DNA of 42,596 nt, from NCBI GenBank assembly GCA_903878415.1, contig CAIRHO010000034.1:1-42596 (forward strand), written 5' to 3'. Position 1 is the stretch's first letter, and every line of letters starts with the position of its first letter. This DNA is from an uncultured Actinomycetes bacterium. Lineage in GTDB: Bacteria > Actinomycetota > Actinomycetes > Nanopelagicales > Nanopelagicaceae. A model generated the notes under the pieces. The model worked only from the letters and a program-made list of their open reading frames with translations. It searched no databases and was not told the origin of the DNA. Shown in pieces: positions 9,300 to 25,840 of this stretch. Position numbers and translations under genes: made by a program.

Positions 9300-9319
9300 C
9301 AGTTCCCCTTTTTATTGCG

Positions 9320-9349
9320 TTATCCGGCTCCGAAATCGAAGCCGGATAA
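9320..9349 (-). terminator. Intra-operon hairpin after the binding-protein gene (attenuator or RNA stabiliser)
   Basis: A perfect 10-bp inverted repeat (TTATCCGGCT / AGCCGGATAA), extendable to about 13 pairs with a 4-base loop. It lies just after the binding-protein stop. On the minus strand it is followed by CGCAATAAAAAG, not a U-run, so it is not a standard intrinsic terminator. Such hairpins after binding-protein genes commonly protect the upstream mRNA or limit read-through so that the binding protein outnumbers the permease. Confidence 0.6.
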
Positions 9350-9366
9350 CAACAATTACTTGATAA

Positions 9367-11100: not shown

Positions 11101-11167
11101 GCTTTGCCTTTCTCGAGTTGTATTACTCCATGGTTTGTTGCTGTAAAACTCCCAGTGACTCTATAGA

Positions 11168-12133
11168 TCATCGGGAACCTTTTGGATCTAAGGCATCTCT
11201 TACGCTATCGCCTAGTAGGTTAAATGCTAAAACTAAAATGAATAGTGCAATACCGGGAATAAAGGTGTACATCGGATCAACCCCATAAAAAGGAACTGAA
11301 GCCAAAAGCATTGCCCCCCAATCAGAAGTGGGTTCGATAACGCCTGCACCTAAAAATGTTAATGCCGCTTCCGTTGTAATAAATGTTGGAATATTTAGCG
11401 CAACCGTAACCAATATCGGTGCCCACAAATTGGGCAGAATTTCACGAAATACTAAATGCCATTTGCTAGCACCAAGAGCTTTTGCCGCTTCAATAAATTC
11501 GCGTTCTCTAAGTGAAATTACCTGGCCGCGCACAATTCTTGCAATATATGGCCAACCGAATGTTGCAATTACAAAAATCATTACCGGAATTCGCGTGGCA
11601 TTTCCCTGGGGAATTCCTGCATCAGTTAAAACGCTCTCTAATACTGGAGTTACTGCTAATGCAAAAAGTATTGAAGGAAATGCTAAAACAATTTCCATTA
11701 GGCGTGAAAAGAATTGATCGATCTTGCCACCGAAAAATCCAGAGATGAGTCCAATGAATACGCCAATTACCGTTGCAACTATGGTCGCAGTTAATGCAAT
11801 TGAAAGTGATGTTCTTGCACCAAAAACAAATCGTAAAAAAATGTCGCGTCCAGTCCGTGGTTCTACGCCAAACCAATGTGCGCTCGAAATTCCACCAAAC
11901 GAACCGATTGGCATCGCTCCCATATTTTCATCTAGCGTTTCCGGATGAAACGCATCAGGATCAGTGTGCAAAATGTGCGGAAAAATCGGTGCGATTGCTC
12001 CAATAAAAATGAAGAAGAAAACTACGCCTGCGGAAACCCAAGCAGTTTTATCTGATTTCAGATGGCTCCATGCAATTGCCGATGGCGAACGACCAAGTAC
12101 CCGCGTGGAGTTATCCAAATCCAATACAGACAT
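11168..12133 (-). CDS. Oligopeptide/dipeptide ABC transporter permease, OppC/DppC-type
   Basis: 321 residues. The N-terminal OppC region (SPSAIAWSHLKSDKTAW followed by a hydrophobic helix) and the permease domain with coupling motif EFIEAAKALGASKWHL are present, as is the conserved PRTGRDIF..RFVFGARTSL region. It heads the minus-strand transport operon and is divergent from the MFS gene at 12222; the 88 bases between should hold both promoters. No clear leaderless -10 was found for this start. Confidence 0.92.
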   Translation of the reverse strand: MSVLDLDNSTRVLGRSPSAIAWSHLKSDKTAWVSAGVVFFFIFIGAIAPIFPHILHTDPDAFHPETLDENMGAMPIGSFGGISSAHWFGVEPRTGRDIFLRFVFGARTSLSIALTATIVATVIGVFIGLISGFFGGKIDQFFSRLMEIVLAFPSILFALAVTPVLESVLTDAGIPQGNATRIPVMIFVIATFGWPYIARIVRGQVISLREREFIEAAKALGASKWHLVFREILPNLWAPILVTVALNIPTFITTEAALTFLGAGVIEPTSDWGAMLLASVPFYGVDPMYTFIPGIALFILVLAFNLLGDSVRDALDPKGSR

Positions 12134-12221: not shown

Positions 12222-13367
12222 ATGTTCAAATGGCGGACTCGGGAATTGATAGTTCTCTTGCTTATTGCTGGTTGTATCCGAGCCCCCTTGACCAGCATCT
12301 CCCCTCAGATCAATCGAATTCGCGAAGATCTTGGCATTTCAATCTCGCTCTTCGGCGTTTTAACTTCTATCCCTATTATTTGTTTCGCAGTAGCCGCACC
12401 ACTTCCTTACACAAAATTATTTCGCAAAATATCTAATGAACTCCTAATTGTGCTCGCCTTATTTATATTAGGGCTCGCCACCATAATTCGCTCAATCGGA
12501 AATACCCCAATACTTTTCTTGGCCACCATAATCCTTGGCATTGCGATCGCAATACTTAATGTTGTTACCCCTGCCATGGTTCGACGGGATTATCCGTTAA
12601 AAATTACCGCCATAATGCCAATTTACTCAGCGCTATTAGCGTTGATTGCCTCAGCTGCTGCCGGTTTTTCGATTCCAATAGCTAGGTTTTTTCACAATAG
12701 TTGGCGAATTGGTATTTCTATTTGGGCGATTCTGCCGTTAGCTACCGCGTTACTTTGGATTCCAGTTTTATTGAATGCTAAACGCACTACCCATACCTCT
12801 GTAAATCATTGGAACACATTATTGAAAAGTTCATCTGCGTGGATGGTCACGATATATATGGGTTTGCAATCGACACTCTTCTACGTGCAAATTGCTTGGT
12901 TACCGAAAATATTAATGGATCAAGGTTATAGTGAAGCGAAAGCGGGTGCGCTTTTAGGTTTTACAACATTCTCCGGATTCATTTTTACTTTCTCGCTTCC
13001 ATTGATTTTCGGACGTGGCAGTAATCAGAAATATTCAGTTTTGGTTACGGCACTCCCCGGCGTCTTTGGCTTCGCAGGTGTTCATTATTTATCAACTTCA
13101 TGGACAGTACCTTCATTAATTCTGATCAGCGCAACGCATGCGGCGTTACCGGTTGCATTAGGGTTAATCGCCATGAAATCGCCTGCCCCGGATCAGACTG
13201 GACATTTATCAGCAATGGCGCAAGGAATTGGATATGGAATTTCTGCAATATTTCCCGCTGCCTTTGGGCTTATTTACCAAGCTACAAATAGTTGGACAAT
13301 TGCAATCAATATTCTTATTGCCATCTCTCTAATTCAAGCCGTAATTGGGTTGCGAGCGAATCGATGA
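12222..13367 (+). CDS. MFS transporter, CynX/NimT-like
   Basis: 381 residues with about 12 hydrophobic helices. The opening RAPLTSISPQINRIREDLGIS is the hallmark of the CynX/NimT (cyanate/nitroimidazole) branch of the major facilitator superfamily; members carry small anions or organic molecules and most substrates are unknown. It is the first gene of an operon whose downstream genes (two GNATs, a mu-crystallin family reductase, a kinase-lyase fusion) suggest transport of an amino-acid-like substrate or export of a product (inference). A leaderless start at 12222 is supported by a -10 box six bases upstream. Its stop overlaps the next start (ATGA). Confidence 0.87.
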   Translation: MFKWRTRELIVLLLIAGCIRAPLTSISPQINRIREDLGISISLFGVLTSIPIICFAVAAPLPYTKLFRKISNELLIVLALFILGLATIIRSIGNTPILFLATIILGIAIAILNVVTPAMVRRDYPLKITAIMPIYSALLALIASAAAGFSIPIARFFHNSWRIGISIWAILPLATALLWIPVLLNAKRTTHTSVNHWNTLLKSSSAWMVTIYMGLQSTLFYVQIAWLPKILMDQGYSEAKAGALLGFTTFSGFIFTFSLPLIFGRGSNQKYSVLVTALPGVFGFAGVHYLSTSWTVPSLILISATHAALPVALGLIAMKSPAPDQTGHLSAMAQGIGYGISAIFPAAFGLIYQATNSWTIAINILIAISLIQAVIGLRANR

Positions 13368-13858
13368 TTATTCGAGAAGCAACCTTGTCAGAGGTTCCAA
13401 CCATTACTGACATTTACAACGAGGTGCTGCTAACCACCAATGCCATATATCGTGAAAATAAAGTGAATCTTGCTGACCGGATTAATTGGTTTAACCAAAG
13501 AGTGGATCTGGGTTTTCCAGTAATCGTCGCTGAAGCAAATGGCGAAGTGGTTGGTTATGGTGCTTTTAATGAATTCAGATTTGGCGAAGGTTACAACGGA
13601 ACAATTGAACATAGCTTGCATGTTAAATCCACGCATAGAGGTAATGGAGTTGGCAGTGCAATATTGGACGAACTAATTAAGATTGCAAAAGTGCAGAGGC
13701 GAAAAATTATGGTAGCGGGAATCGATTCCGAAAATCTTGGCTCAATTAGGTTCCATAAGAAATTCGGATTTATCGAAACTGCCCGCATGCCAGGTGTAGC
13801 GATAAAACATGAGAAGAAATTGACACTTGTTTTAATGCAAAAAGATTTAGCACGATGA
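13364..13858 (+). CDS. GNAT N-acetyltransferase, Pat/MnaT-like
   Basis: 165 residues. The start is ATG at 13364, overlapping the MFS stop, because the protein then begins MIIREATLSEVP as usual for GNATs; a longer in-frame ORF upstream has no homology-like content. The acetyl-CoA loop is in THRGNGVGSAILDEL, and the GIDSENLGSIRFHKKFGF segment is typical of the phosphinothricin / methionine-sulfoximine / L-amino-acid acetyltransferase group. It acetylates an alpha-amino group of an amino acid or analogue, using acetyl-CoA. Context suggests a lysine-like or hydroxylated amino acid, but this is not visible from the sequence. Confidence 0.85.
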   Translation: MIIREATLSEVPTITDIYNEVLLTTNAIYRENKVNLADRINWFNQRVDLGFPVIVAEANGEVVGYGAFNEFRFGEGYNGTIEHSLHVKSTHRGNGVGSAILDELIKIAKVQRRKIMVAGIDSENLGSIRFHKKFGFIETARMPGVAIKHEKKLTLVLMQKDLAR

Positions 13859-14337
13859 TAATAAGAGATGCAGTTCCTGAAGATGCCCAGTTTATTCTCA
13901 ATTTAATTATCGAATTAGCAGTTTACGAAAAAGCACCTGATGAAGTTATTGCTAACATCGAAGATATTCGCACTTCACTTTTTGGAGATAACCCCGTGTC
14001 ATTTTGCAAAATTGCCGAAGTGGAAGGTGAGATGGCTGGCTTTGCAATCTGGTTTTTAAATTACTCAACTTGGTTAGGAAAACCTGGGATTTATCTTGAA
14101 GACCTCTTTGTAAAACCAGAATTTAGAGGAAGTGGCATCGGTTTGGGTCTAATGAAATCTTTGGCTGATATTTGCCTCACTCGTGGTTACGAACGGTTCC
14201 AATGGTGGGTACTTGATTGGAATGAAACAGCTATTGATTTTTACAAATCTATTGGAGCCCAACCGATGGCGGAATGGACTGTTTTTAGATTAAGCGGTGA
14301 GGCGTTGGTTAATTTCGCAAAGAAACCGAATAAGTGA
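13855..14337 (+). CDS. GNAT N-acetyltransferase, SSAT/thialysine-type
   Basis: 160 residues starting MIIRDAVPEDAQ. The segments FAIWFLNYSTWLGKPGIYLEDLFV, with the acetyl-CoA loop PEFRGSGIG, and WWVLDWNETAIDFYKSIGA are diagnostic of the diamine acetyltransferase family (spermidine/spermine SSAT1 and thialysine SSAT2). These add acetyl groups to polyamines or to the side-chain amine of lysine analogues. The start overlaps the previous gene by 4 bases. In this operon a side-chain-amine substrate such as hydroxylysine or a polyamine is plausible (inference). Confidence 0.85.
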   Translation: MIIRDAVPEDAQFILNLIIELAVYEKAPDEVIANIEDIRTSLFGDNPVSFCKIAEVEGEMAGFAIWFLNYSTWLGKPGIYLEDLFVKPEFRGSGIGLGLMKSLADICLTRGYERFQWWVLDWNETAIDFYKSIGAQPMAEWTVFRLSGEALVNFAKKPNK

Positions 14338-14350
14338 GAAGGTTTGCGAT

Positions 14351-15301
14351 ATGAACTCCGCTATGCCAGTCACAATATCTGCAGCAGAAGTGGAATCCGC
14401 TTGTTCACTGATCGAGGTTGTGCAATCGCAACGGAATGCGCTCGGCGGTCTGATAACTGGCGTTTCGGTAATGGGTCCAAGAGCGGTAATTACAAATGGT
14501 GAGAATGCTCAATTTTCATATATCGCCAGAGCATCTAGTACGGCGCCCACAATAGTTAAATTTGGCAGCGTTACTGGATCTAATAGCGCAAAAGGGTTGC
14601 CAGTTGTCCAGGCCTACATCGGCGTAATGGATTATGAAACTGGATCGTTAAAATATTTTGTAGATGGCGAGAGCGTTACACGCATCCGAACTACTGCAGC
14701 CAGCATGGTCGCTGCCCAAGAATTAGCTAATAAACCTAAATATATAACGGTAATTGGCAGCGCGCCGCAAGCGATTGCTCATGCTAAAGCAGCGCTTGAA
14801 CTCTTTACTCCAGAAAAAATAACTATAGTTGTAAGAAACGCCGCAAAAGGCGATGCAGTTAGAGCTCAATTTCAAAATAGTTCTCCCATCGAAATATCAA
14901 TGGATATCGAAGCTGCGGTAACTGGTTCTGATTTAATATTTGCATGTACAAATGCGATGGTTCCGCTTTTTAAATCTAAGCTGTCGCCAGGAACAACTTG
15001 CATTTCAATTGGATCATTTGCGCCGAATCGTGAAGAGATATCAGCAAACACAGTAATTGCCGCTGATAAAGTATTTGCCGACGATGCTGCCACAACTGAA
15101 GCACAATGTGGCTCAATAATACCGGCGTTATCATCACCTAATAAGAAGTGGGATTCTGTTTTTTCAATTGGAGCAGTCATAAATCGAACCATAGGCGGGC
15201 GGGATAATGCCGACGAAATTATTTGTTATTTCAGCGTAGGCCTTGGGGTTCAAGATGCAAGTTTTATTGAATTACTTATGAGCAAGAAATTAAACAAATG
15301 A
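14351..15301 (+). CDS. Ornithine cyclodeaminase / mu-crystallin family NAD(P)H enzyme
   Basis: 316 residues. The start is ATG at 14351, with Shine-Dalgarno AGAAGG eight bases upstream; a longer frame from 14297 would overlap the previous gene needlessly. Family signs: a Lys in IVKFGSVTG, the TRIRTTAAS motif, and a Rossmann loop TVIGSAPQAIAHA (the usual GxGxQA is here GSAPQA). Members are ornithine or lysine cyclodeaminases, or ketimine reductases that reduce cyclic imines such as piperideine-2-carboxylate or pyrroline-2-carboxylate. Its place directly before the hydroxylysine-kinase/lyase-like fusion favours a C6 cyclic-imine reductase (inference). It overlaps the fusion gene by 4 bases. Confidence 0.82.
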   Translation: MNSAMPVTISAAEVESACSLIEVVQSQRNALGGLITGVSVMGPRAVITNGENAQFSYIARASSTAPTIVKFGSVTGSNSAKGLPVVQAYIGVMDYETGSLKYFVDGESVTRIRTTAASMVAAQELANKPKYITVIGSAPQAIAHAKAALELFTPEKITIVVRNAAKGDAVRAQFQNSSPIEISMDIEAAVTGSDLIFACTNAMVPLFKSKLSPGTTCISIGSFAPNREEISANTVIAADKVFADDAATTEAQCGSIIPALSSPNKKWDSVFSIGAVINRTIGGRDNADEIICYFSVGLGVQDASFIELLMSKKLNK

Positions 15302-18228
15302 AGAATATAGATCCGAAAGTGATTTTAGTTGAGCACTTCAACATAACCGCGGAAGTGTTGCAACTACCTGGAGAGCGCGATCTAAATTACAAAGTAATTG
15401 CAGATCAAACTTACGTTTTAAAATTGTATGAAACTGGAAATAGAGATTGGCTTGAACTTCAAGATTTCGCACTTCGGATGTTAGATATTGATGGCATCCC
15501 GAACCCATTTCCTTCAGTAAAAGGTGATTTCTTAGTGGATCTACCTAATGGACGAATTGCAAGATTATTAAAATGGGTGAATGGCGAACCTTGGGCAAAA
15601 AGCGATACCGATCCGCAACAATTGCAGGCCCTTGGCGCCAAAATTGCCCAGGTCGATCAGAAGCTATCTACCATCACTTTAGACGTAAAAAATAACGCGG
15701 TTTTAAATCGCCAGTTCATTTGGAATTTATTGCAAGCTGATTCACTGATTTCTCAATGTAATCTGATAACTGATCCAGCTCTGCAATCAATTGTGATTAA
15801 GGTTTTGGAACATTTTAAGAATGAGACAAAACCTGCGCTAGCCAAATTACCAGCTCAAGTTATTCATAACGATGGTAATGATTACAACATTCTGGTCGAT
15901 GGAAATCGATTAGGTTTGATTGATTTTGGCGATATTGTGATTGCCCCGAAAATAGTAGGACTAGCGGTTTGCGCTGCATACATGGTTCTGGAAAAGAATG
16001 ATCCAATCAAGGAAATCCTGCCATTGATCCGCGGCTATCACATGGTCGCTCCCCTAACTCCTGCCGAATTGGAAATACTTTTTGACTTAATCCAAGTTCG
16101 ATTAGCTATGAGCGTAGTAAATGCTGCAATCCAAAGTAAATCAGCACCAACGAACGAATACTTATTAATAAGTCAAGATGTAGTCCCTGATGCGCTTTTC
16201 AAATTAGCTAAAACCGATCTCAACCACTCACATTTTCGATTCAGAGATGCTTGCGGATATGATGGAAATCCAAACTCCCGCGCAATCCGCCAATATTTGG
16301 AGAGCGTTGCTAAACCTAGCGATGTTGTTTGCAAACCATTTGCTTCTGCTAAAAAATATTTCTTCAACTGGTCCATTGATAACCCAGACCTGCCTCGAAC
16401 CGAGGCTGAACTAAACGCTTTGATGGCCGAAATTGGAGCGCAAGTTTCAATTGGTTACTACTGCGAAGAACGCAATGTCTATCAAGGTGAAGCATTTAAT
16501 ATCAAAAGTCCGAGCGCCCGAACTTTCCATCTCGGCGTTGATTTAGGCATGCCAGCCGGCTCCGCGGTTTATGCTCCGCTAGATGGTGAAATTTATGCAT
16601 TTAACGATAACAACACTTATTTAGATTATGGGCCAGTCATAATGTTGAAACATTTAACTGATACCGGTATTCCGTTTTGGACTTTATACGGTCATTTATC
16701 TCGGACATCCCTGCTTCCGCTAACTGTTGGCATGAAGGTCAAAGCGGGCGATCAAATCGCAACTATGGGTGTGGAAGCAGAAAATGTTGGTTGGCCACCA
16801 CATACCCATTTCCAATTACTAACGGATCTCTGTGGCATGGGATTAGACGTGCACGGAGTAGCACCTCGAGATGAAGTTTCGCTTTGGCGGAGTATCTCCC
16901 CCAACCCGAATCTAATTCTGCGTATTAAAGAAGGTACGGATGCCCACGGCAAGGTTTCGCCAGAAGTGATTAGAAATCAGCGCGACACTGTGCTTTCACA
17001 AAACCTTAGTTTAAATTTTAGAGCTCCGCTACAAATCGTTAAAGGTGAAGGCGCTTACCTCTTCGATCAATCCGGTAAAAAATATTTAGATTTAGTTAAT
17101 AACGTTGCCCACGTTGGTCATGGTCATCCCCGAGTTGTTGCGGCGGGTGCTAACCAAATGGCAACTTTAAATACCAACACCCGATATTTGCACCAGAACA
17201 TTGTTGAATACGGTCGTGCACTAACTAACACACTCCCAGACCCTTTAAGTGTGATCTTCTTTGTAAATAGTGGAAGTGAAGCTAACGATTTAGCCATTCG
17301 ATTAGCACGCGCTTACACAAAACGAAAAGGCATGATTGCTTTGAAGCATGGCTATCACGGCCATACCCAGAGTGTGGTTGAAATTAGTCCTTACAAATTC
17401 TTGGGCAAAGGTGGCGCTGGCACGCCGGCTCATGTTGGCGTTGCAGAACTTCCCGACCCGTTCCGCGGTCAGTACCGTGGCGAAGGCGCCGGAGTTAAAT
17501 ATGCTGCTGATTTTGCAAATGTAATTTCTAATTTGAAAGAACCACTTGCTGCCTTTTTTTGTGAGGGAATTGTCAGTACTGGTGGCCAAATCCGATTAGC
17601 TGAAGGGTTTTTAACTAGTGCTTTCGCACAAGTTCGCGCGAGTGGCGGAATCTGCATCAGCGATGAAGTACAAATTGGTTTAGGTCGAGTAGGTGAAAAA
17701 TTCTGGGGATTTGAATTACATGGCGTTGTTCCAGATATCGTAACTATGGGCAAACCGCTAGGAAATGGTCACCCGCTAGCTGCTGTAGTTACGACTCCTG
17801 AAATCGCGGCCGCTTTTCATAATGGTATGGAATATTTCAATACTTTCGGCGGCAATCCGGTAAGCGCCGCCATCGGTCAAGCAGTTCTAGATGTTGTGCA
17901 AGATGAAAATCTGCAAGCAAACGCGATCGAAATAGGTAATTATCTTTCAAATGGCGTAAAGGAACTTAGCAAATCTCATCCGATAATTGGTGATGTGCGC
18001 GGGTCCGGGCTATTTATTGGCGTGGAATTAATGCGCGATGAAAATACGCCAGCAACTGCAGAGATGTCAGATTTAATGGAGTATGCAAAAGATGCTGGAG
18101 TTTTCCTATCCTGTGACGGTCCAGATAATAATATTTTGAAAATTAAACCACCAATGATTATCAACCGAAAAGATGTAGATTTCTTTTTGAATGTTTTTGA
18201 TGCTGGAATTAAAGCAATAACTAAGTAA
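15298..18228 (+). CDS. Three-domain fusion: APH-type kinase, M23 metallopeptidase-like domain, class III aminotransferase/phospho-lyase
   Basis: 976 residues in one uninterrupted frame. Residues 1 to about 330 are an APH/RdoA-type kinase with HNDGNDYN (about 191-198) and IDFGD (about 208-212). About 400-525 is an M23 (LytM) domain with a full zinc site: H411 and D415 in HLGVD, H466 in YGHLS, and H502/H504 in PHTHF. About 548-976 is a class III PLP enzyme with Asp in SDEVQ (D789) and Schiff-base Lys in MGKPLG (K819). Human hydroxylysine kinase and the phosphohydroxylysine / phosphoethanolamine phospho-lyases belong to the two terminal families, so the likely joint reaction is phosphorylation of an amino alcohol followed by elimination of phosphate and ammonia. 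5-Hydroxylysine is favoured by the neighbours; ethanolamine or 1-amino-2-propanol are alternatives. No signal peptide, so the M23 domain would be cytosolic. Confidence 0.85.
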   Translation: MKNIDPKVILVEHFNITAEVLQLPGERDLNYKVIADQTYVLKLYETGNRDWLELQDFALRMLDIDGIPNPFPSVKGDFLVDLPNGRIARLLKWVNGEPWAKSDTDPQQLQALGAKIAQVDQKLSTITLDVKNNAVLNRQFIWNLLQADSLISQCNLITDPALQSIVIKVLEHFKNETKPALAKLPAQVIHNDGNDYNILVDGNRLGLIDFGDIVIAPKIVGLAVCAAYMVLEKNDPIKEILPLIRGYHMVAPLTPAELEILFDLIQVRLAMSVVNAAIQSKSAPTNEYLLISQDVVPDALFKLAKTDLNHSHFRFRDACGYDGNPNSRAIRQYLESVAKPSDVVCKPFASAKKYFFNWSIDNPDLPRTEAELNALMAEIGAQVSIGYYCEERNVYQGEAFNIKSPSARTFHLGVDLGMPAGSAVYAPLDGEIYAFNDNNTYLDYGPVIMLKHLTDTGIPFWTLYGHLSRTSLLPLTVGMKVKAGDQIATMGVEAENVGWPPHTHFQLLTDLCGMGLDVHGVAPRDEVSLWRSISPNPNLILRIKEGTDAHGKVSPEVIRNQRDTVLSQNLSLNFRAPLQIVKGEGAYLFDQSGKKYLDLVNNVAHVGHGHPRVVAAGANQMATLNTNTRYLHQNIVEYGRALTNTLPDPLSVIFFVNSGSEANDLAIRLARAYTKRKGMIALKHGYHGHTQSVVEISPYKFLGKGGAGTPAHVGVAELPDPFRGQYRGEGAGVKYAADFANVISNLKEPLAAFFCEGIVSTGGQIRLAEGFLTSAFAQVRASGGICISDEVQIGLGRVGEKFWGFELHGVVPDIVTMGKPLGNGHPLAAVVTTPEIAAAFHNGMEYFNTFGGNPVSAAIGQAVLDVVQDENLQANAIEIGNYLSNGVKELSKSHPIIGDVRGSGLFIGVELMRDENTPATAEMSDLMEYAKDAGVFLSCDGPDNNILKIKPPMIINRKDVDFFLNVFDAGIKAITK

Positions 18229-19842
18229 CTACTCGTTCCATCTTGGGCTAGTACTCTTAGGTGGATAAAGCGTTTCCTTTATTAGAATTATTCCTGGAGT
18301 ATCTTGTTGAAGTGCGTCACCAAGTTTTTCAATTGTACTTTCAGTAAAAGCCAAGCCGAATGAAGCCGCTAACAATTCCCAATTAGGCGAGAACAAATCA
18401 ACACCGCGTTCTGGATGGGCCGCTACTTGTTGGTCGTATCGGAGCATCCCGTAACCGCCATCATCAACAATTAGCAATGTATATGGCAAATTCTCTTGCA
18501 CGATTGTTGCTAACTCACCGAGTGCAAATGCAACGCCACCATCTCCGCAGACTGCAAGAGTTTTGATGCCGGATGCAGCGGGACCAATTGCAGCTGGTAA
18601 TCCGAAGCCGAGGGTGCCCCAACCAACTGGGTAAGAAAGTCTTCTAGGACGCGGTTGTTTTGCATAAACGCCGGTCCAATAACCAACTACCGCCATATCG
18701 CAGACTATTGCACCATCCTTCGGCCAATTATCTTCAATCGCCGCCACTAGTGCGATACCTCTTGCACTTTTTTCTTCCGCTATTAACCGAGATCTAACTT
18801 TTTGATTTAGCGCAGAAACATCTGCCCACTTACTCAGCGCTTTCAATTGGCTAAGTTGAGTTAGCGCGGAACTTAGATTCGCGGTTTGAATTACTACTTG
18901 CGGAGATATGTTGCGTAACACAATGGTTGGATCCACATCAATTACAACTATTGATTTAGGGAAAGGAATATTCCAATTTTTAGTATTCATGCCATCTAAT
19001 TGACTTCCAATAACGATTAGAGAATCGCATTCAGCCATCAAATTTGAAATTTCAGGTTCATGAATTGGGGCTTGTAAAGTTAACGGATTACTTGCGCAAA
19101 CTCCGCGGGCTGCAAATGATGTAAAAATCGGAGCGCTTAAATGTGTAGCAAGTATGCCAATTTCGCTATCTGCTGCAAGACCACCGCCACCAACCCAAAT
19201 TCCAATTTTTGATTTACCAGAGAGCTCTTTGATAGCTGGCGCCAATTCTGGAATAGCCAATTCAATTTTCGATGCAGTTGGAATCTCGCCAACAAACTCT
19301 GCTCCTAATAAATCTGCCGGAATTCCGATATATCCAGATCCACTTGGCGCGTTCGTTAAACCAGATATGAAATCAATAACTGCAGCAATTGCACTTTTAG
19401 CATCAGTGACGCTAACCGACATTGCTTTACCATTTCTAATCTTCGCAAGTGGAGTAAAAAGTGCGCTTTGATCGTTCATCTCATGTAACAAACCACGTGA
19501 TCCATCTTTATGGCGCTTTCCGATTGGTGCTTCTGAAGAAATTACTAAAACTGGGGATCCACTAATCGCTGCTTCGCCGAAGGCTCCTAAAGTATTTGCC
19601 GCTCCTGGCCCCGTGGTAGTAAGTGCAACCGCTAACTTTCCAGTGCTTCGGGCTAAGCCATCCGCTGCGTAAACAGAGCTCTGTTCATGTCTAACTCCAA
19701 TAATCCTGGGACGATTGGTATCTAGCGCGTTCCAAAATGCGAGATTATGTACACCAGGTATTCCAAAACACTCTTTTACGCCTGCGCGCCAGAGTAAATC
19801 TAAAATGGCGCCAGCTAACGTAGTAGTGGAATGCTCAGGCAT
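18229..19842 (-). CDS. ThDP-dependent enzyme of the acetolactate synthase / 2-oxoacid decarboxylase family
   Basis: 537 residues with the three ThDP-enzyme domains. The activating Glu is E53 in RHEQSS. The diphosphate/metal motif runs from GDGG (about 432) to VDDGGYGML (about 460), where the usual NN is DD. A strict acetolactate synthase assignment is not supported: no regulatory subunit or ilv genes are nearby. The gene is packed head-to-tail against the fusion gene (convergent, no spacer) and divergent from an ALDH7-like gene. Decarboxylation of 2-oxoadipate to glutarate semialdehyde would complete the proposed pathway, but that activity is inferred from context only. Confidence 0.8.
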   Translation of the reverse strand: MPEHSTTTLAGAILDLLWRAGVKECFGIPGVHNLAFWNALDTNRPRIIGVRHEQSSVYAADGLARSTGKLAVALTTTGPGAANTLGAFGEAAISGSPVLVISSEAPIGKRHKDGSRGLLHEMNDQSALFTPLAKIRNGKAMSVSVTDAKSAIAAVIDFISGLTNAPSGSGYIGIPADLLGAEFVGEIPTASKIELAIPELAPAIKELSGKSKIGIWVGGGGLAADSEIGILATHLSAPIFTSFAARGVCASNPLTLQAPIHEPEISNLMAECDSLIVIGSQLDGMNTKNWNIPFPKSIVVIDVDPTIVLRNISPQVVIQTANLSSALTQLSQLKALSKWADVSALNQKVRSRLIAEEKSARGIALVAAIEDNWPKDGAIVCDMAVVGYWTGVYAKQPRPRRLSYPVGWGTLGFGLPAAIGPAASGIKTLAVCGDGGVAFALGELATIVQENLPYTLLIVDDGGYGMLRYDQQVAAHPERGVDLFSPNWELLAASFGLAFTESTIEKLGDALQQDTPGIILIKETLYPPKSTSPRWNE

Positions 19843-19848
19843 GAGGCG

Positions 19849-19854
19849 ACAATA
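19849..19854 (-). promoter_or_regulatory. -10 box of a leaderless promoter for the ThDP enzyme
   Basis: On the minus strand TATTGT is followed by six bases and the ATG at 19842. The divergent ALDH gene starts at 19879, so the two promoters overlap in a 36-base spacer. Confidence 0.5.
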
Positions 19855-19878
19855 CCGCGATATGAAAGAGGGAAGAGA

Positions 19879-21381
19879 ATGAGCAACATAGTTTCGAAAA
19901 ATCCCAGCAATCTAAGCGATGTAATTGTCGAACTTCCAGCTGCTACCTCTGATGAGATTGTCGCCGCCGCAAAGCGCGCAAAGGCAGCGCAAAAAGCATG
20001 GGCAGCAATGCCCGCACCAGCTCGCGGTCGAGTAATTGCAAATGTTGGACGACTTGTTGAAGCTAATAAAGAATCTCTTGCGAAATTGGTAACTCGTGAA
20101 ATGGGCAAAGTTTACGCCGAAGCACTTGGTGAAGTTCAAGAAGTTATCGATACCTGTGATTTCTTCCTAGGCGAAGGTCGACGCATGTATGGCCAAACCG
20201 TACCAAGTGAGATGCCTAATAAGAATTTATTTACTTTCAGAATGCCGGTTGGTAGCACACTGATTATCACAGCTGGAAATTTCCCAGCAGCCGTACCATC
20301 TTGGTACATCGTTCCAGCGTTATTAACTGGCAACTCCGTTATCTGGAAACCAGCAGAATTTACGCCAGCCGTTGCCAACGCGCTCACCGCAATTTTCCAC
20401 GCTGGCGGTGTACCAAAAGATATTTTGATTACTCTTGTTGCAGAAGGCGCCGCAACATTTGAAGCGATGGATAAATGTTTATCTTTAGGGCTAATAAATA
20501 AAGTTGGATTTACCGGATCAACTGAAGTTGGTCGAAAAATCGGCGCAAAAACTGGCGAATATATTCAAAGCGCATGCCTTGAACTAGGCGGCAAAAATCC
20601 AATGGTCGTAATGCCAGATGCAAATCTAGATTTAGTTCTAGAAGGCGCACTCTTCGCCGGATTCGGAACTGCTGGACAACGATGCACATCACTTGGAACG
20701 CTCTGGCTTCATGAATCTATTTACGATGCATTCTTAGCTAGATATGCCGAAACAGTTGCTAATGCAAAAGTTGGCGACCCGATGAAAGATGTTCTATTCG
20801 GACCAATGATTAGCGAAAAATACTTAGAAAACCATCTCAAGAATTTATCGATGATTCAAAAACACCATACCGTGCTTGGTTCTACTGGAGTAGGTCGGAT
20901 CACAAAAGAGAATCCCCGCGCTGGTTTTGTGGGAGATCCAGAAGCTGGCGTCTTTGTGCATCCAACAATCGTCGCTGGTTTAACTAAAGATGATGAACTT
21001 TATGCCACCGAAACATTTGGCCCATTAGTAACTGTCGGAAAATTCAAAACAATCGAAGAAGCAATCGAACTATCCAATGGCCACGGCTATGGCCTCTCTT
21101 GTGCAATTTATAGTAGCGACCCAAAAACAATTTGGACTTATCGTGAAGGCGTATCTGCCGGAATGATGTCAGTTAATAATTCAACTTCAGGAGCCGAAGC
21201 CCATTTGCCTTTCGGTGGAAATGGCAAAAGTGGAAACGGTTCCCGTCAAAGTGGCGTTTGGGTACTAGATCAATTCACCAGATGGCAATCACTCAACTGG
21301 GATTGGTCCGGTAAATTACAAAAAGCCCAGATGGATACTGTTGAAGTTGCCCATAATCCAAATTTCCGAATCGCTGAATAA
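19879..21381 (+). CDS. Aldehyde dehydrogenase, ALDH7-like (2-aminoadipate semialdehyde dehydrogenase-type)
   Basis: 500 residues from the ATG at 19879, which follows a strong Shine-Dalgarno (AGAGGGAAGAG); the frame stays open upstream but would run into the divergent gene. Catalytic Cys is C269 in GTAGQRCTS and the general base E235 in LELGGK. The GTAGQRCT block and the late NSTSGAEAHLPFGG match ALDH7 (antiquitin), in which the SGAE segment contacts the amino-acid end of 2-aminoadipate semialdehyde. The family oxidises that aldehyde to 2-aminoadipate with NAD(P). It is followed after 23 bases by glutaryl-CoA dehydrogenase, which supports a lysine/hydroxylysine catabolic role. Confidence 0.85.
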   Translation: MSNIVSKNPSNLSDVIVELPAATSDEIVAAAKRAKAAQKAWAAMPAPARGRVIANVGRLVEANKESLAKLVTREMGKVYAEALGEVQEVIDTCDFFLGEGRRMYGQTVPSEMPNKNLFTFRMPVGSTLIITAGNFPAAVPSWYIVPALLTGNSVIWKPAEFTPAVANALTAIFHAGGVPKDILITLVAEGAATFEAMDKCLSLGLINKVGFTGSTEVGRKIGAKTGEYIQSACLELGGKNPMVVMPDANLDLVLEGALFAGFGTAGQRCTSLGTLWLHESIYDAFLARYAETVANAKVGDPMKDVLFGPMISEKYLENHLKNLSMIQKHHTVLGSTGVGRITKENPRAGFVGDPEAGVFVHPTIVAGLTKDDELYATETFGPLVTVGKFKTIEEAIELSNGHGYGLSCAIYSSDPKTIWTYREGVSAGMMSVNNSTSGAEAHLPFGGNGKSGNGSRQSGVWVLDQFTRWQSLNWDWSGKLQKAQMDTVEVAHNPNFRIAE

Positions 21382-21404
21382 CTAGTAAAGGATAGATTCA
21401 CCCT

Positions 21405-22583
21405 ATGACTAAAAAAGATCCAGTGCATCCATTCGATTTACTAGATGTGCAACGCGAGTTAACTGAAGAACAACGCGCTATCCAAAAAGTTGCGCGCGAT
21501 TTTGTTGATAAAGAAGTCAAACCACATATTGCTGGTTGGTATGAAAGCAGCGATATCCCGGTTCGCGAATTAGCGCTTAAGTTGGGTGCAATTGGAATGT
21601 TAGGTATGCATCTTGAAGGTTATAGCTGCGCCGGAACTGATGCCACTTCTTATGGTCTTGCGTGCTTAGAACTTGAAGCTGGCGATTCCGGGTTGCGTTC
21701 CCTCGTTTCAGTACAAGGATCACTTTCAATGTTTGCAATTCATGAATATGGCAGCGAAGCCCAAAAAGAGAGATGGCTACCGGAAATGGCGGCTGGCCGT
21801 GCGATTGGATGTTTTGGTTTAACTGAAGCTGATTTTGGCTCAAACCCATCCGGAATGCTCACAAATGCAAAACGTGATGGCGATAATTGGATTATTAACG
21901 GCAACAAGATGTGGATTACAAATGGCACGGTCGCCGATGTAGCCATTATTTGGGCGCAAACCGATGAAGGAATCCGTGGTTTTGCGGTCGATACTAAAAC
22001 CGCCGGCTTCCAAGCAAATTTAATCAAACATAAACTTTCACTTCGCGCTTCATTGACTGCGGAGTTAGTTTTCACAAATCTAAAAGTTTCAGATGCTGAC
22101 CGATTGCCTGGCGCAACTAGTTTGCGGGCTCCCCTAATGTGTCTTGCCGAAGCTCGCTACGGAATTATTTTTGGAACCGTCGGTGCTGCACGAGATTCCT
22201 TAGAGACTGCACTTGCTTATGCTGCTACCCGCGAACAATTTGATGGCCCTATTGCTCGTCATCAAATGACGCAAGCAAAGTTTGCTGCGATGGCAACCAG
22301 ATTGAACACTGCGATGCTCTTGGCACTTCATATCGGAAAAATAAAAGATGTTGGTCAAGTCCAACCGCAGCAAATAAGTATGGGTAAATATAACAATGCC
22401 ATGGGCGCGCTTGAAATCGCACGTGAAGCGCGATCAATCCTTGGCGGCGCTGGCATCACCACTGAATATTCGGTTTTCCGACATATGGCCAATTTGGAAA
22501 CCGTTTTAACTTATGAAGGAACCCATGAGATTCATTCGTTAGTAATTGGTGAAGCCCTTACCGGAATAGCGGCTTACCGCTAG
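21405..22583 (+). CDS. gcdH: Glutaryl-CoA dehydrogenase
   Basis: 392 residues of the acyl-CoA dehydrogenase fold, with segment-by-segment resemblance to human GCDH: LRSLVSVQGSL (Arg at 98 corresponds to the Arg that binds the glutaryl carboxylate), CFGLTEADFGSNPS, FSLRAS-like LSLRASLTAE, LGGAGITTEY and TYEGTHEIHSLV with catalytic Glu near 371. The FAD enzyme oxidises and decarboxylates glutaryl-CoA to crotonyl-CoA and passes electrons to electron-transfer flavoprotein. A Shine-Dalgarno AAAGGA precedes the ATG. It is in an operon with the ALDH7-like gene; its stop overlaps the stop of the convergent CoA-transferase gene. Confidence 0.93.
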   Translation: MTKKDPVHPFDLLDVQRELTEEQRAIQKVARDFVDKEVKPHIAGWYESSDIPVRELALKLGAIGMLGMHLEGYSCAGTDATSYGLACLELEAGDSGLRSLVSVQGSLSMFAIHEYGSEAQKERWLPEMAAGRAIGCFGLTEADFGSNPSGMLTNAKRDGDNWIINGNKMWITNGTVADVAIIWAQTDEGIRGFAVDTKTAGFQANLIKHKLSLRASLTAELVFTNLKVSDADRLPGATSLRAPLMCLAEARYGIIFGTVGAARDSLETALAYAATREQFDGPIARHQMTQAKFAAMATRLNTAMLLALHIGKIKDVGQVQPQQISMGKYNNAMGALEIAREARSILGGAGITTEYSVFRHMANLETVLTYEGTHEIHSLVIGEALTGIAAYR

Positions 22584-23698
22584 TCATCAGCCCCAAGATC
22601 TGGTGCGCCTAACCGATATGTAACTGGTGTTTCTGAGAAAATTATTGGGTTCGCAATTGTCTTACTTATTTTTCCTGATCGTGAATCGGTAATGCTTACT
22701 ATGGGATCGAGTCCAATATCGGTGGCGAGTTTTACACCTTCCGCTATTGAATTAATCGGTCCAGCGGGTACGCCGAATGCAGTTAGCTTTTCCGTCCAAA
22801 AAGCAGCCGTTTCAGTCATGAATTTTTGATTTAAAAAATCGTTTAACGCGGTGCGATTTGCAACTCGCGCAGAATTACTTTCAAATCTTGCGTCAGTTGC
22901 AATATCTAGATTAAGCACTCTTGCAAGATCTACGAACTGGCGATCATTACCCACCGCGATAATTAAATACTGGTCCTTCGCTTTATAAACTTCATACGGA
23001 GCAATACTTGGATGCGCATTACCCATTGCTTTAGGTGTAACGCCAGCGCCCGCAAATGCCCCTGATTGATTTACCATCGCAGATAGCGCTGAACTCAATA
23101 AATTTACCGCTATTTTCTGACCAATGCCGGTCTCAGCTCTACTAACTAAAGCCGCCGAAATTCCTAACGCAGCATGTAACCCAGAAATTACATCCACTAG
23201 CGCAACCCCAACTTTAGTTGGCGATTTTGAATCTGCTCCAGTAATGCTCATTAACCCACTCATGCCTTGTACCAACAGGTCATAACCAGGAAGTTTCTTA
23301 GCTAACTCACTTGTACCAAAACCAGAAATGGAACAATAGATCAATTTGGGGAATTTTTTATGTAACTCCTCATAACCTAGACCAAATTCTTCCATGGTAC
23401 CAACCGTGAAATTCTCAATCAGCACATCACATTTGCCAATAATTTCTAGCGCTTTAGCTTTTCCGGCTGCCGTAGATAAATCTGCAGTTACTCCAACTTT
23501 ATTTCGGTTAACAGATTGAAAATAAGTTGAAGTGCCATCCTCGTTAAATGGTGGCCCCCAAGTACGTGTGTCATCGCCGTCGACTGGCCGTTCAATTTTT
23601 ATTACTTCCGCTCCCATATCGCCAAGCAACATGCTCGCGTATGGGCCTGCTAATACTCGCGAAAAATCCGCGATCTTAATTCCGGTCAGTGCTGTCAT
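22580..23698 (-). CDS. Class III CoA-transferase, probably succinyl-CoA:glutarate CoA-transferase-type
   Basis: 372 residues of the CaiB/BaiF family. The opening GIKIADFSRVLAGPY and the catalytic Asp at D169 (in ALVDVISGLHA, the same number as in formyl-CoA transferase) are intact. Human SUGCT, which activates glutarate with succinyl-CoA, is in this family; adjacency to glutaryl-CoA dehydrogenase makes glutarate the best substrate guess. Other dicarboxylates or 2-hydroxyacids remain possible. It is the second gene of a minus-strand pair with a class V PLP enzyme, 3 bases apart. Confidence 0.87.
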   Translation of the reverse strand: MTALTGIKIADFSRVLAGPYASMLLGDMGAEVIKIERPVDGDDTRTWGPPFNEDGTSTYFQSVNRNKVGVTADLSTAAGKAKALEIIGKCDVLIENFTVGTMEEFGLGYEELHKKFPKLIYCSISGFGTSELAKKLPGYDLLVQGMSGLMSITGADSKSPTKVGVALVDVISGLHAALGISAALVSRAETGIGQKIAVNLLSSALSAMVNQSGAFAGAGVTPKAMGNAHPSIAPYEVYKAKDQYLIIAVGNDRQFVDLARVLNLDIATDARFESNSARVANRTALNDFLNQKFMTETAAFWTEKLTAFGVPAGPINSIAEGVKLATDIGLDPIVSITDSRSGKISKTIANPIIFSETPVTYRLGAPDLGADD

Positions 23699-23701
23699 TT
23701 A

Positions 23702-24901
23702 TTAAAGCAGTTCGCTTATTCCGCTAATTAATCGATCGACATCTTCCCGGGTGCTGTAAGGAGCTAATCCAGCACGGATCGCACCGGCATCCCCTAAGCC
23801 AAGTGATAAACAAGCTTCTAAACCGTAAAAATTAGAGGCTGGAGCGTTGACATTTTTTGAAGCTAAATGTTTATAAACATCGCTCGAATTTAAGCCATCA
23901 AAAGTAAAAAATGCGGTTGGTGTGCGGTGTGAAGCGTTGCTATATAACTTAATTTTAGGCAATCCGCGTAATTTTCCATCCATATAACGGAAAAGTTCTT
24001 CTTCATAACGTTCCATCGCGATCATGGACGCAACTATTTTTGCCCGTCGTGTACCACTTTGATTAGGTATTACATCTGCGATGAAATCAATCGCTGCTGT
24101 AACTCCAGCCATAATTTCATATGGCAAAGTACCGAATTCAAAGCGTTCCGGAACTTCAGATGTGGCTGGTAAAAGTTTGTCGTTATTAAGGGTTCTTAGT
24201 AGCTCTGGTGCTGCAGCAATTGCCGCGCAATGTGGGCCAAACAATTTATAGGAAGAGAACCCATAAAAATCTGCTCCTAACTCTTTCATGCTTATCGGAG
24301 TATGCGGAGTGAGGTGAACACCATCAACATAAAAAAGCGCACCCACGGCGTGCACCAACTTTGAAATTGCTGCAATATCTGGTCGAGTTCCAATTACATT
24401 TGATGCGCCAGTAACTGCCACCAATTTAGTTTTTGCAGATAGTAAATTACCGATAACCTCTGGAGCTAATTCACCGGTGTTGATATCAATTTGCGCCCAT
24501 TTAACTGTTGCCCCAACTGCTTCAGCAGCTTGCACCCATGGCCGAACATTTGAATCATGATCTAATCGCGTTACGATTATTTCATCGCCTGGCTTCCAAG
24601 TTTTTGCTAACGTTCTAGAAAAATCATAAGTAATCTGGGTCCAACTGCGACCATATACAACTCCTTCTGGATTGCAATCCAACAAATCCGCTACTGCGCT
24701 ACGAAAACCAAGTACAGCTGCATCCGCGTTCTGTTCCGCTTTCGTTGTTGTTCCTCGATTAGAAACAGATGCGGTAATAGTTTGCGATATTGCATCACCA
24801 ACAGATTTCGGAACTTGGGATCCACCTGGTCCATCAAAAAAAGCAGTTCCGGAATTTAAGGCTGGAAATTGGGCGCGAATTCGATTTACGTCGTAAGTCA
24901 T
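23702..24901 (-). CDS. Class V PLP enzyme (cysteine-desulfurase-like protein)
   Basis: 399 residues. The start is set at ATG 24901 (MTYDVNRIRAQFPAL), where a TAGAAT box lies seven bases upstream; a longer frame would overlap the divergent gene. Fold-type I class V signatures: DHDSN (about 114-118), cofactor Asp D193 in YVDGVH and Schiff-base Lys K219 in GFSSYKLFG. It matches the 'cysteine desulfurase-like, VC1184' subfamily. The mobile-loop Cys in the normal sulfurtransferase context is absent (only an isolated Cys in EACLSL), so desulfurase activity is doubtful. Pairing with the glutarate-type CoA-transferase suggests it may act on an amino acid of the pathway, for example 2-aminoadipate (inference). 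Confidence 0.8.
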   Translation of the reverse strand: MTYDVNRIRAQFPALNSGTAFFDGPGGSQVPKSVGDAISQTITASVSNRGTTTKAEQNADAAVLGFRSAVADLLDCNPEGVVYGRSWTQITYDFSRTLAKTWKPGDEIIVTRLDHDSNVRPWVQAAEAVGATVKWAQIDINTGELAPEVIGNLLSAKTKLVAVTGASNVIGTRPDIAAISKLVHAVGALFYVDGVHLTPHTPISMKELGADFYGFSSYKLFGPHCAAIAAAPELLRTLNNDKLLPATSEVPERFEFGTLPYEIMAGVTAAIDFIADVIPNQSGTRRAKIVASMIAMERYEEELFRYMDGKLRGLPKIKLYSNASHRTPTAFFTFDGLNSSDVYKHLASKNVNAPASNFYGLEACLSLGLGDAGAIRAGLAPYSTREDVDRLISGISELL

Positions 24902-24908
24902 GAAATGG

Positions 24909-24914
24909 ATTCTA
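24909..24914 (-). promoter_or_regulatory. -10 box for the class V PLP enzyme / CoA-transferase pair
   Basis: TAGAAT on the minus strand, seven bases before the ATG at 24901, with no Shine-Dalgarno between. Confidence 0.5.
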
Positions 24915-24940
24915 GCCCGAGGTAGGGCAGTATTAGCGAC

Positions 24941-25840
24941 GTGCATCTAACGCGGACCGAAAAGATAGGAATGCTTTATGCGCTCTTAGGTGTCTTTCTC
25001 TTCTCGCTATCGCTGCCAATGACTAAATGGGCGCTAGAAAGTTTCAGTCCTTATTTAACTGCAACATCGCGGCCAATTTTGGCCTCACTCTTAGCAATCC
25101 CCTTAATGCGTGCCGCAAAAGTTCCCGCCCTTCCAAAAATTCATTTCAAAGCCATGGTTTTTACAACAATTGGCGCTGCGTTCGCTTGGCCGATTTTGAT
25201 TGCGTTGGCGTTAGCCCGAACTACTTCTGCTCATGTAGCCGTAATTGCAGCAATAATGCCGCTAACAACTGCAATCATGGCTGTGATCAGAACTAAAGAA
25301 AATGTAACTGCGCAATTTTGGCTTGCATCAGCAACTGGAACGATCCTTTTAATACTTTTTGCCATCTCAAGGGGTGGCGCCGAAAATGGCGATTTCATTG
25401 CAGATCTTCTTACTATATGCGCAGTGATCGCATCTTCATATTGTTATGTAGAAGGAGCCGAGCTAACCAAAGTAATGCCGGGCTGGCAAGTGATTTCTTG
25501 GGTGGTAATTTTTGCGTTACCTATCTGCATACCTGCTTCAATAATTATTTGGTTAAATACATATGATGGTTCGCCTCTAACTTTCCATGCACTATTTGGA
25601 ATTGTCATGATTGGTTTCTCTTCGATGTATATCGGATTTTTTGCTTGGTACCGCGGTTTGAAAGATGCTGGCACAGCACATGGTTCGCAAGTTCAACAGC
25701 TTCAAGCGATTATGACTTTGGGTTGGGCCGCTTTGTTGCTTAATGAAAAAGTAACGCTAACTATGGCGTTGATCGCGCTAGGGGTTATTGCATCAGTACT
25801 TTGGGCGTTAACTTCGCGCCGAAAACCAAAAACAAATTAA
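24941..25840 (+). CDS. EamA/DMT-family transporter
   Basis: 299 residues with about ten membrane helices in two EamA repeats (first repeat GVFLFSLSLPMTKWAL; second-repeat end region HGSQVQQLQAIMTLGWAALLLNE). It starts with GTG (24941) only 39 bases from the divergent class V gene; the -10 for this gene is not clear (TATTAG lies just upstream). It probably moves an amino acid or organic acid. Its TAA stop overlaps the stop of the convergent M3 peptidase gene. Confidence 0.85.
   Translation: MHLTRTEKIGMLYALLGVFLFSLSLPMTKWALESFSPYLTATSRPILASLLAIPLMRAAKVPALPKIHFKAMVFTTIGAAFAWPILIALALARTTSAHVAVIAAIMPLTTAIMAVIRTKENVTAQFWLASATGTILLILFAISRGGAENGDFIADLLTICAVIASSYCYVEGAELTKVMPGWQVISWVVIFALPICIPASIIIWLNTYDGSPLTFHALFGIVMIGFSSMYIGFFAWYRGLKDAGTAHGSQVQQLQAIMTLGWAALLLNEKVTLTMALIALGVIASVLWALTSRRKPKTN

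Follow-up and report, generated by a model that had tools for sequence, protein, structure and literature searches.

Whether bacteria possess the animal type of hydroxylysine catabolism is the question raised by a gene cluster in an uncultured actinobacterium of the family Nanopelagicaceae (GenBank assembly GCA_903878415.1). The cluster lies on contig CAIRHO010000034.1, and this one entire contig of 42,596 nucleotides is the window analyzed here; the genome comprises 1.36 Mb in 71 contigs and is 90% complete. At the centre of the cluster is a gene whose product joins an aminoglycoside phosphotransferase (APH)-type kinase, a Peptidase_M23 domain and a class III pyridoxal phosphate (PLP) enzyme in a single chain, hereafter the fusion. 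Its neighbours encode an ornithine cyclodeaminase (OCD)-family reductase, a thiamine diphosphate (ThDP) enzyme, an aldehyde dehydrogenase (ALDH), an acyl-CoA dehydrogenase (ACAD) and a CoA-transferase. We consider it probable that these genes together serve the catabolism of 5-hydroxylysine, a modified amino acid known above all from collagen; this reading is well supported but unproven, each substrate being predicted from sequence.

The gene set at the locus

The core genes span 14351-24946, and they occupy both strands and do not form one operon. A first-pass annotation, made from the letters of the DNA, had named seven core genes, and all seven were found at their places by open reading frames (ORFs), Pfam and NCBIfam. 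It let the locus begin at 12222, and so included a major facilitator superfamily permease and two GNAT genes whose membership is not shown. The features are as follows.

14351..15301 (+): OCD/mu-crystallin family reductase (PF02423, 102.7 bits), proposed cyclic-imine reductase
15298..18228 (+): three-domain fusion of APH kinase, M23 metallopeptidase and class III PLP phospho-lyase
15370..16053 (+): APH-type kinase domain of the fusion, residues 25-252 (PF01636, 64.2 bits)
16525..16821 (+): Peptidase_M23 domain of the fusion, residues 410-508 (PF01551, 61.1 bits, cut-off 28.7)
17026..18201 (+): class III PLP domain (Aminotran_3) of the fusion, residues 577-968, phospho-lyase type
18229..19842 (-): ThDP enzyme with three thiamine pyrophosphate (TPP) domains, proposed 2-oxoadipate decarboxylase yielding glutarate semialdehyde
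19879..21381 (+): ALDH7-like aldehyde dehydrogenase; the ORF opens at 19831, and 19879 is the second ATG
21405..22583 (+): glutaryl-CoA dehydrogenase (GCDH; to crotonyl-CoA), an acyl-CoA dehydrogenase
22580..23698 (-): class III CoA-transferase (PF02515), SUGCT-like, proposed succinyl-CoA:glutarate CoA-transferase
23702-24946 (-): class V PLP enzyme (TIGR01976), probable start 24901, a doubtful part of the set

The OCD gene probably starts at ATG 14351 or 14363 (the listed ORF opens at GTG 14297), and its stop overlaps the start of the fusion by 4 bases. In the fusion, the first-pass annotation had recognized a kinase and a class III PLP enzyme, and both domains are indeed present; its two-domain make-up did not hold, as Pfam revealed the central Peptidase_M23 domain that it had missed. 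An AlphaFold model of the whole chain reached a pLDDT of 89.2 and a pTM of 0.84. The protein matches the bacterial fusion family NF004799 (PRK06148) over its full length and in all three domains, with residues 7-975 aligned to positions 17-1012 of the 1015 in the model, and seven homologues scored 1079-1468 bits on the same model (G010 1110, G001 1079, G023 1094, G005 1131). By score and architecture, the window's protein would be an edge relative of this family, which NCBIfam names 'hypothetical protein'.

A genome scan for relatives of the fusion found at least 582, and the best 80 loci were retained, which cover about ten phyla by record title; 53 of them span at least 3 kb on each side. 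The window's protein was aligned with those from the 75 retained loci that have an open frame of at least 900 residues. In all 76 proteins, the kinase residues D192, N197 and D209 and the PLP lysine were invariant, so that an APH-fold kinase with its catalytic residues stands beside a class III PLP phospho-lyase, as in the pair of HYKK and PHYKPL. The M23 domain shows the pattern HxxxD ... H ... HxH, whose residues we take to play their usual roles in zinc binding, and it is LytM-like by sequence; H411, D415 and H466 were kept in 76/76 proteins, H502 and H504 in 75/76. With the Pfam cut-off passed and the ligands in place, it is predicted to be a zinc peptidase, which is a real puzzle inside a kinase-lyase chain. 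The fusion is proposed to be a 5-hydroxylysine kinase and 5-phosphohydroxylysine phospho-lyase, on the strength of its domains and of the gene company described below.

Co-occurrence and linkage within the family

The fusion, whole or largely so, was found in 20/151 genomes of the family, including 3/5 of the window's genus; it was not found in G037 and G048 of that genus, which are 80% and 73% complete. Of the 20 family genomes that bear the fusion we took 14, and of the 131 that lack it 16, the latter picked for their complete or near-complete state, and compared these 30. The ThDP enzyme was present in 14/14 genomes with the fusion and in 0/16 without it (Fisher p 7e-9), and so was the ALDH, although one of its 14 copies is fragmentary. 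That copy, in the cluster of G046 (L136:2779-3804), is a 341-residue frame covering 306/516 residues, from either a broken gene or an assembly fault. GCDH was present in 14/14 against 2/16, the CoA-transferase (420 bits or more) in 12/14 against 1/16, and OCD in 13/14 against 0/16, with two copies just 31% identical and that of G025 cut by a contig end. An additional FAD oxidase of the sarcosine-oxidase superfamily, carried by fusion-bearing genomes of four other genera, was found at 400 bits or more in 11/14 against 0/16; weaker matches of 138-185 bits occurred in 5 of the 16. Fisher p values across these tests ranged from 7e-9 to 1e-5 and overstate independence, the genomes being related; with genera collapsed to 12 units, the association of the ThDP enzyme kept a p of 0.0013.

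The same genes were also physically linked. OCD, fusion, ThDP enzyme, ALDH, GCDH and CoA-transferase recur together in other genera, partly rearranged, with the usual order ACAD - FAD oxidase - ALDH / ThDP - OCD - fusion - CoA-transferase. Because the OCD, fusion, ThDP enzyme and CoA-transferase of these genera are only 44-61% identical to those of the window, the recurrence shows that the gene company exceeds chance. In G005, G044, G183 and G184, the fusion and the ThDP-ALDH-oxidase trio lie on separate contigs and both are present, and the presence of the set varies even inside the genera g2 and g4. Thus co-occurrence and conserved linkage, which had been set as a test beforehand, were clearly present in the family loci and in the 30-genome counts.

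The cluster or a close fusion also occurs in UBA7398, in SCGC AAA027-J17 (presumably acI) and in metagenome-assembled genomes (MAGs) of Nanopelagicales. Going by these records, the window falls among freshwater actinobacteria of the acI type. Two MAG records titled Bifidobacterium breve (L056, L057) carry an acI-type cluster with the same gene order and a fusion 60% identical; they are probably mislabelled.

The fusion beside lysine-catabolic genes in other bacteria

Outside the family, the fusion was found next to piperideine-6-carboxylate dehydrogenase (P6CDH; curated model NF050084, cut-off 730 bits). P6CDH lies 1.0-2.3 kb from the fusion in 5/80 retained loci, a small number that represents two lineages: Sinosporangium (L067) and Nonomuraea (L089) on the one hand, and three Latescibacterota (L080, L086, L094), whose fusions are 81-85% identical, on the other. 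Two of the five P6CDHs pass the curated model, with 809.5 and 783 bits. The other three scored 849-880 bits on our own profile, built from 15 of 30 gathered P6CDH loci, and G164, G165 and G167 each hold one P6CDH over the curated cut-off. In L067 and L089, HglS, the 2-oxoadipate dioxygenase/decarboxylase (PF07063), stands next to P6CDH and the fusion, with 454 and 457 bits. Since P6CDH and HglS act on the intermediates proposed here, this company of the fusion supports the hydroxylysine reading.

The window-type ALDH and ThDP enzyme were linked to the fusion in 6 of the 80 retained loci (L054-L057, L066, L131), all actinobacterial by title or sequence. Outside the initial sample, but near the window's order, three more genomes bear the fusion: G182 (L059) has a P6CDH-HglS pair (L171:9813-12729), while G183 (L060) and G184 (L061) have the ALDH-ThDP-oxidase trio and no P6CDH at E <=1e-150. 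This pattern suggests two interchangeable ways onward from piperideine-6-carboxylate (P6C), either P6CDH with HglS or the ALDH7-like enzyme with the ThDP enzyme, and it is mainly because of this replacement that we name the ThDP enzyme a putative 2-oxoadipate decarboxylase. The ThDP bypass of the first-pass annotation, a decarboxylase serving as an alternative exit from 2-oxoadipate, is thereby supported as a prediction.

Further copies were noted along the way. In Sinosporangium, the P6CDH-HglS pair beside the fusion occupies L067:4485-7633. HglS adjoins P6CDH in G168 (Rhizobium tropici PTD1; L148:7-1314, 542 bits), away from the fusion, and an HglS-like gene in L154 (G157) is likewise away from it. 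A streptomycin adenylyltransferase-like gene (PF04439, 243 bits) lies near the fusion and P6CDH of one Latescibacterota locus (L080:15779-16672).

The dehydrogenase and its partner enzymes

Among solved proteins, the ALDH is closest to ALDHTt of Thermus thermophilus (6fjx, 467 bits), followed by antiquitin, Pcd and ALDH7A1 (250-270 bits) and then by the next other ALDH (245.6 bits). The motifs GEVQE, GQRCT and SGAE, the last in the anchor loop, presumably contain the positions of Glu121, Arg301, Gly461 and Ala462 of human ALDH7A1. All three were exact in 8/8 window-type ALDHs and in 15/15 P6CDHs; none was exact in three other ALDHs of the window's own genome (3 of its 8 other matches), and in ALDHTt-like ALDHs of Chloroflexota all three were exact in 0/19, with exact GEVQE in 0 and exact SGAE in 0. 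The exact three-motif match is therefore unique to window-type ALDHs and P6CDHs among the sequences compared. The four residues are described as the aminoadipate contacts of ALDH7A1 in a passage of PMC11362210, and the authors of the ALDHTt structure state, in a part of PMC6127216, that it may belong to ALDH family 7, judging from its anchor loop and tail 'crook'. The anchor motif of ALDHTt is TVGAE, and that of the window TSGAE. We take the ALDH of the window to be a sister type able to carry out the P6CDH reaction, not a proven member of ALDH7, and propose it as the 2-aminoadipate semialdehyde/P6C dehydrogenase; perhaps it oxidizes glutarate semialdehyde too.

The acyl-CoA dehydrogenase is, by homology, a glutaryl-CoA dehydrogenase. 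It scored 547.7 bits against 3sf6 and 336 bits against 1sir, both named glutaryl-CoA dehydrogenases; 9/10 of its best distinct solved sequences carry that name (one as 'putative'), and peroxisomal acyl-CoA oxidase 4 follows at 241 bits. It stays below the cut-off of the glutaryl-CoA dehydrogenase Acd model NF045552 (193.3 bits, cut-off 470), which we take to describe the non-decarboxylating type. Judged by such matches, GCDH is the sole enzyme of the cluster that strongly resembles solved enzymes bearing the name of its proposed reaction.

The OCD protein passes the PF02423 cut-off of 24 and stays below the cut-off in all 13 NCBIfam models listed; its best solved relative is the delta1-pyrroline-2-carboxylate reductase 6t3e (73 bits). 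The FAD oxidase groups with sarcosine oxidase and dimethylglycine dehydrogenase, and both pipecolate and aminoadipate are possible substrates. The class V PLP enzyme scored 439.8 bits on TIGR01976, over the cut-off of 352.35. Among the loci examined, its adjacency to the cluster is confined to the window's genus (the window itself, L035 and L038); in L042 it lies 3 kb away. Hence the first-pass annotation was right about the presence of this gene, while its place as an established cluster member fell away with the narrow adjacency; it is perhaps the aminoadipate aminotransferase of the window's genus.

A proposed route from hydroxylysine to crotonyl-CoA

In the route that we propose, the kinase domain of the fusion would phosphorylate the 5-hydroxyl of 5-hydroxylysine, and the PLP domain would then eliminate phosphate and ammonia, leaving 2-aminoadipate semialdehyde, which equilibrates with P6C. 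The ALDH7-like enzyme, going by its motifs and its co-occurrence, would oxidize the semialdehyde to 2-aminoadipate. Deamination to 2-oxoadipate may be the task of the class V PLP enzyme in the window and of the FAD oxidase in relatives. The ThDP enzyme would decarboxylate 2-oxoadipate to glutarate semialdehyde, the same or another ALDH would oxidize this to glutarate, the CoA-transferase would form glutaryl-CoA, and the predicted GCDH would yield crotonyl-CoA. In relatives with FAD oxidase and OCD reductase, lysine or pipecolate probably joins at P6C.

The choice of hydroxylysine follows from the chemistry: coupled to the kinase, a 1,2-elimination at C5/C6 turns hydroxylysine into 2-aminoadipate semialdehyde, which is the substrate of the fusion's companions. 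The pathway put forward in the first-pass annotation keeps its course from 2-aminoadipate semialdehyde/P6C to glutaryl-CoA, owing to the linkage and to the P6CDH and HglS neighbours elsewhere, with its details corrected as described above. As for the source of hydroxylysine, animal collagen or the collagen-like proteins of giant viruses are possible, which is speculation.

Evidence weighing against the hydroxylysine reading

A number of results weigh against this reading. Several proteins fall short of curated models: the best NCBIfam model of the ALDH is P6CDH, at 347.8 bits against the cut-off of 730, so that of the earlier ALDH7-like assignment the sister type stands on its motifs and a curated P6CDH does not, and no P6CDH over the cut-off was found in the 30 family genomes (0/30). 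The fusion itself, at 1121 bits, is 7 short of the NF004799 cut-off of 1128. For the CoA-transferase, the best of seven models was succinate--glutarate CoA-transferase NF052585 (350.7 bits, cut-off 750), and the ThDP enzyme lies below all listed NCBIfam cut-offs. Two of the three ALDH motifs are also less distinctive than they seem, as GQRCT was found in 19/19 and GAE in 17/19 of the ALDHTt-like Chloroflexota ALDHs, whether the fusion was present or not; only exact GEVQE and SGAE are therefore telling. In genomes without the FAD oxidase OCD lacks a clear role, and the M23 domain is needed by no step. Neither for the deamination of aminoadipate nor for a dedicated oxidation of glutarate semialdehyde was a gene found, in a search that did not extend to the rest of the genome.

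In the wider distribution of the fusion, the other retained loci have no constant fusion neighbour, and 63/68 retained loci outside the window's order have no P6CDH in the covered stretch (49/68 span at least 3 kb on each side). On the supporting side, P6CDH over the cut-off was present in 30/35 genomes searched from a choice of 36 of the 80 retained loci, against 1/14 control genomes and 9/200 Chloroflexota; the first count, which has no background from Bacteroidota and Alphaproteobacteria, may partly reflect shared ancestry. In the Chloroflexota sample, taken without its centre G173, P6CDH was found in 10/200 genomes at E <=1e-150 (9 over the cut-off) and the full fusion in 9/200; two more match the PLP part alone. 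The two genes coincided in G324 only, giving P6CDH in 1/9 full-fusion genomes against 9/191 others (p 0.38), and a universal link between P6CDH and the fusion is unsupported by this test. When four Chloroflexota from another sample were added, P6CDH was found in 4/13 fusion-bearing genomes (p 0.005). A window-like ALDH (E <=1e-85, 34-38% identity) was present in 9/9 fusion genomes of the Chloroflexota sample against 10/20 without fusion or P6CDH (p 0.009), and in 0/4 of the added fusion genomes, three of which have P6CDH; its motifs showed no clear difference between fusion-bearing and other genomes, and the association settles nothing. In Chloroflexota, either another dehydrogenase takes part or the fusion has another substrate.

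Alternative explanations

A cluster for lysine or pipecolate would explain much of the same gene set, with OCD leading to pipecolate, the FAD oxidase to P6C, and then ALDH, ThDP enzyme, CoA-transferase and GCDH, while the fusion would act on another amino alcohol and be linked for other reasons. This fits the fusion-bearing members of g2, g4 and g9, which include OCD and FAD oxidase, and those of g6, where the oxidase accompanies the ALDH; the best solved relative of OCD is also a cyclic-imine reductase. We nevertheless think it unlikely. In the window's genus, the three genomes with the fusion showed no close FAD oxidase, yet they keep fusion, ALDH, ThDP enzyme, CoA-transferase and GCDH. The fusion also stands beside P6CDH in two unrelated lineages, and 4/5 of those loci, listed gene by gene, gave no OCD or oxidase match.

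A different substrate for the fusion is suggested by its PLP domain. Among solved proteins, the human ethanolamine-phosphate phospho-lyase 6tor comes nearest to it (437 bits) and gave a VIA Z of 59.0, an rmsd of 1.3, 389 aligned residues and 50% identity in structure comparison, followed by the bacterial phospholyase 5g4i. The kinase domain is uninformative on the substrate, as the sequence search of solved structures returned homoserine kinase 2ppq alone (E 0.0024). The fusion might accordingly turn ethanolamine or aminopropanol into acetaldehyde or propanal, beside an independent glutarate pathway. Most fusion-bearing genomes of the Chloroflexota sample lack P6CDH, and of the genomes without the fusion G003 has both GCDH and CoA-transferase and G019 has GCDH, all of which would be in keeping with this. 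In humans, the 5-phosphohydroxylysine lyase and the ethanolamine-phosphate enzyme are close paralogues, so that similarity to 6tor is indecisive. Ethanolamine use would need none of the fusion's companions and is disfavoured for that reason: the ThDP enzyme and ALDH7-like enzyme, which have no place in it, follow the fusion without exception in the 30 family genomes, and elsewhere the fusion sits beside P6CDH and HglS. We regard this explanation as quite improbable.

The ThDP enzyme might instead decarboxylate 6-amino-2-oxohexanoate, the 2-oxo acid of lysine, in the manner of the 2-oxoarginine enzyme; the ALDH would then give 5-aminovalerate, the class III domain would transaminate it, and glutarate, glutaryl-CoA and crotonyl-CoA would follow. 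Its second-best model is indeed 5-guanidino-2-oxopentanoate decarboxylase (PRK07524), at 261.9 bits below the cut-off of 500, and GCDH and CoA-transferase fit as well. We hold this to be very unlikely, as the class III domain is of the phospho-lyase type and fused to a kinase, and the ALDH has the exact P6CDH motifs. That the genes share no pathway and sit together by chance in a compact genome would suit their spread over both strands. The probability of this is next to negligible, given that five genera of one family have the set together with the fusion, even on contigs other than the fusion's, and that genomes without the fusion lack it (GCDH in 2/16 and CoA-transferase in 1/16 excepted).

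Relation to known pathways

The hydroxylysine route resembles the animal HYKK/PHYKPL pathway in having an APH kinase, a class III PLP phospho-lyase, ALDH7-like, SUGCT-like and GCDH enzymes and the same proposed intermediates. Unlike there, kinase and lyase form one chain with M23 between them, the genes are clustered, and a ThDP decarboxylase is proposed in place of the 2-oxoadipate dehydrogenase; the likeness is drawn from domain types. The enzyme 6tor is of the same class III type, and unlike the window's protein it is not fused and acts on phosphoethanolamine. Lysine catabolism in Pseudomonas putida via P6CDH and then HglS ends in 2-hydroxyglutarate. That pair adjoins the fusion homologues of Sinosporangium and Nonomuraea and is present in G182, whereas the window has an ALDH7-like sister and a ThDP enzyme and ends in glutaryl-CoA.

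Kinase-lyase fusions are already known, and bacterial bi- and trifunctional kinase fusions are reportedly mentioned in the abstract of Veiga-da-Cunha 2012. No description of a bacterial hydroxylysine kinase/lyase pathway was found among the titles and abstract openings listed for the literature searched, mostly without subscription papers. A passage of PMC5200902 cites HYKK and PHYKPL as a metazoan pathway, and a part of PMC13275390 includes a gene annotated as hydroxylysine kinase, by annotation only, in a Herbaspirillum operon. From the gene content, bacteria appear to have a pathway of the animal type, centred on a fusion family which is known yet functionally unnamed in NCBIfam.

The fusion family is widespread, and its genomic company here points to 2-aminoadipate semialdehyde as the product. 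If the hydroxylysine reading is true, bacteria have an animal-type hydroxylysine pathway, a patchy gene set in abundant freshwater bacteria is explained, and a ThDP 2-oxoadipate decarboxylase would join the dehydrogenase complex and HglS as another way out of 2-oxoadipate.

Flanking genes and further observations

Two flanking features may bear on peptide supply, their membership of the cluster not being shown.

6320..12133 (-): peptide-type ABC transporter (two ATPases, two permeases, SBP_bac_5)
25837..27876 (-): M3 oligopeptidase (PF01432, 390 bits)

The same transporter flank is present in G010 (L035), and the M3 oligopeptidase recurs in G010 and G025. The transporter is proposed to supply peptides, and together the two would suit peptide supply. 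One could go further and picture the fusion as a single-chain salvage machine for peptide-bound hydroxylysine (Hyl), in which M23 would free Hyl (from Gly-Hyl/Hyl-Gly) intracellularly from imported collagen-like peptides and kinase and lyase would form 2-aminoadipate semialdehyde. We find this idea unlikely; if it is true, an enzyme so far unrecognised lets bacteria from about ten phyla reuse protein of the collagen type.

In two alphaproteobacterial loci, an Lrp/AsnC-type regulator is divergent from the fusion (L062:9372-9851 and L076:9385-9840) and clusters with a gene of L070; such a regulator would suit amino-acid catabolism. On pSymB of S. meliloti R14 (L053:7660-14961), a LacI-type regulator, an amino-acid ABC transporter and a short-chain dehydrogenase/reductase-type oxidoreductase precede the fusion.

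Within the window, a promoter scan was uninformative, with 6 promoter-like sites where shuffled sequence led to an expectation of 28.1. A second APH-family kinase gene lies at 1774-2745 (68.7 bits), outside the cluster. At 179-252, ARAGORN calls a tRNA-like gene with a four-base 'ggcc' anticodon, below the Rfam threshold; it reads as tRNA-Gly(GCC) with a G just before the anticodon, possibly a sequence error or a decayed gene.

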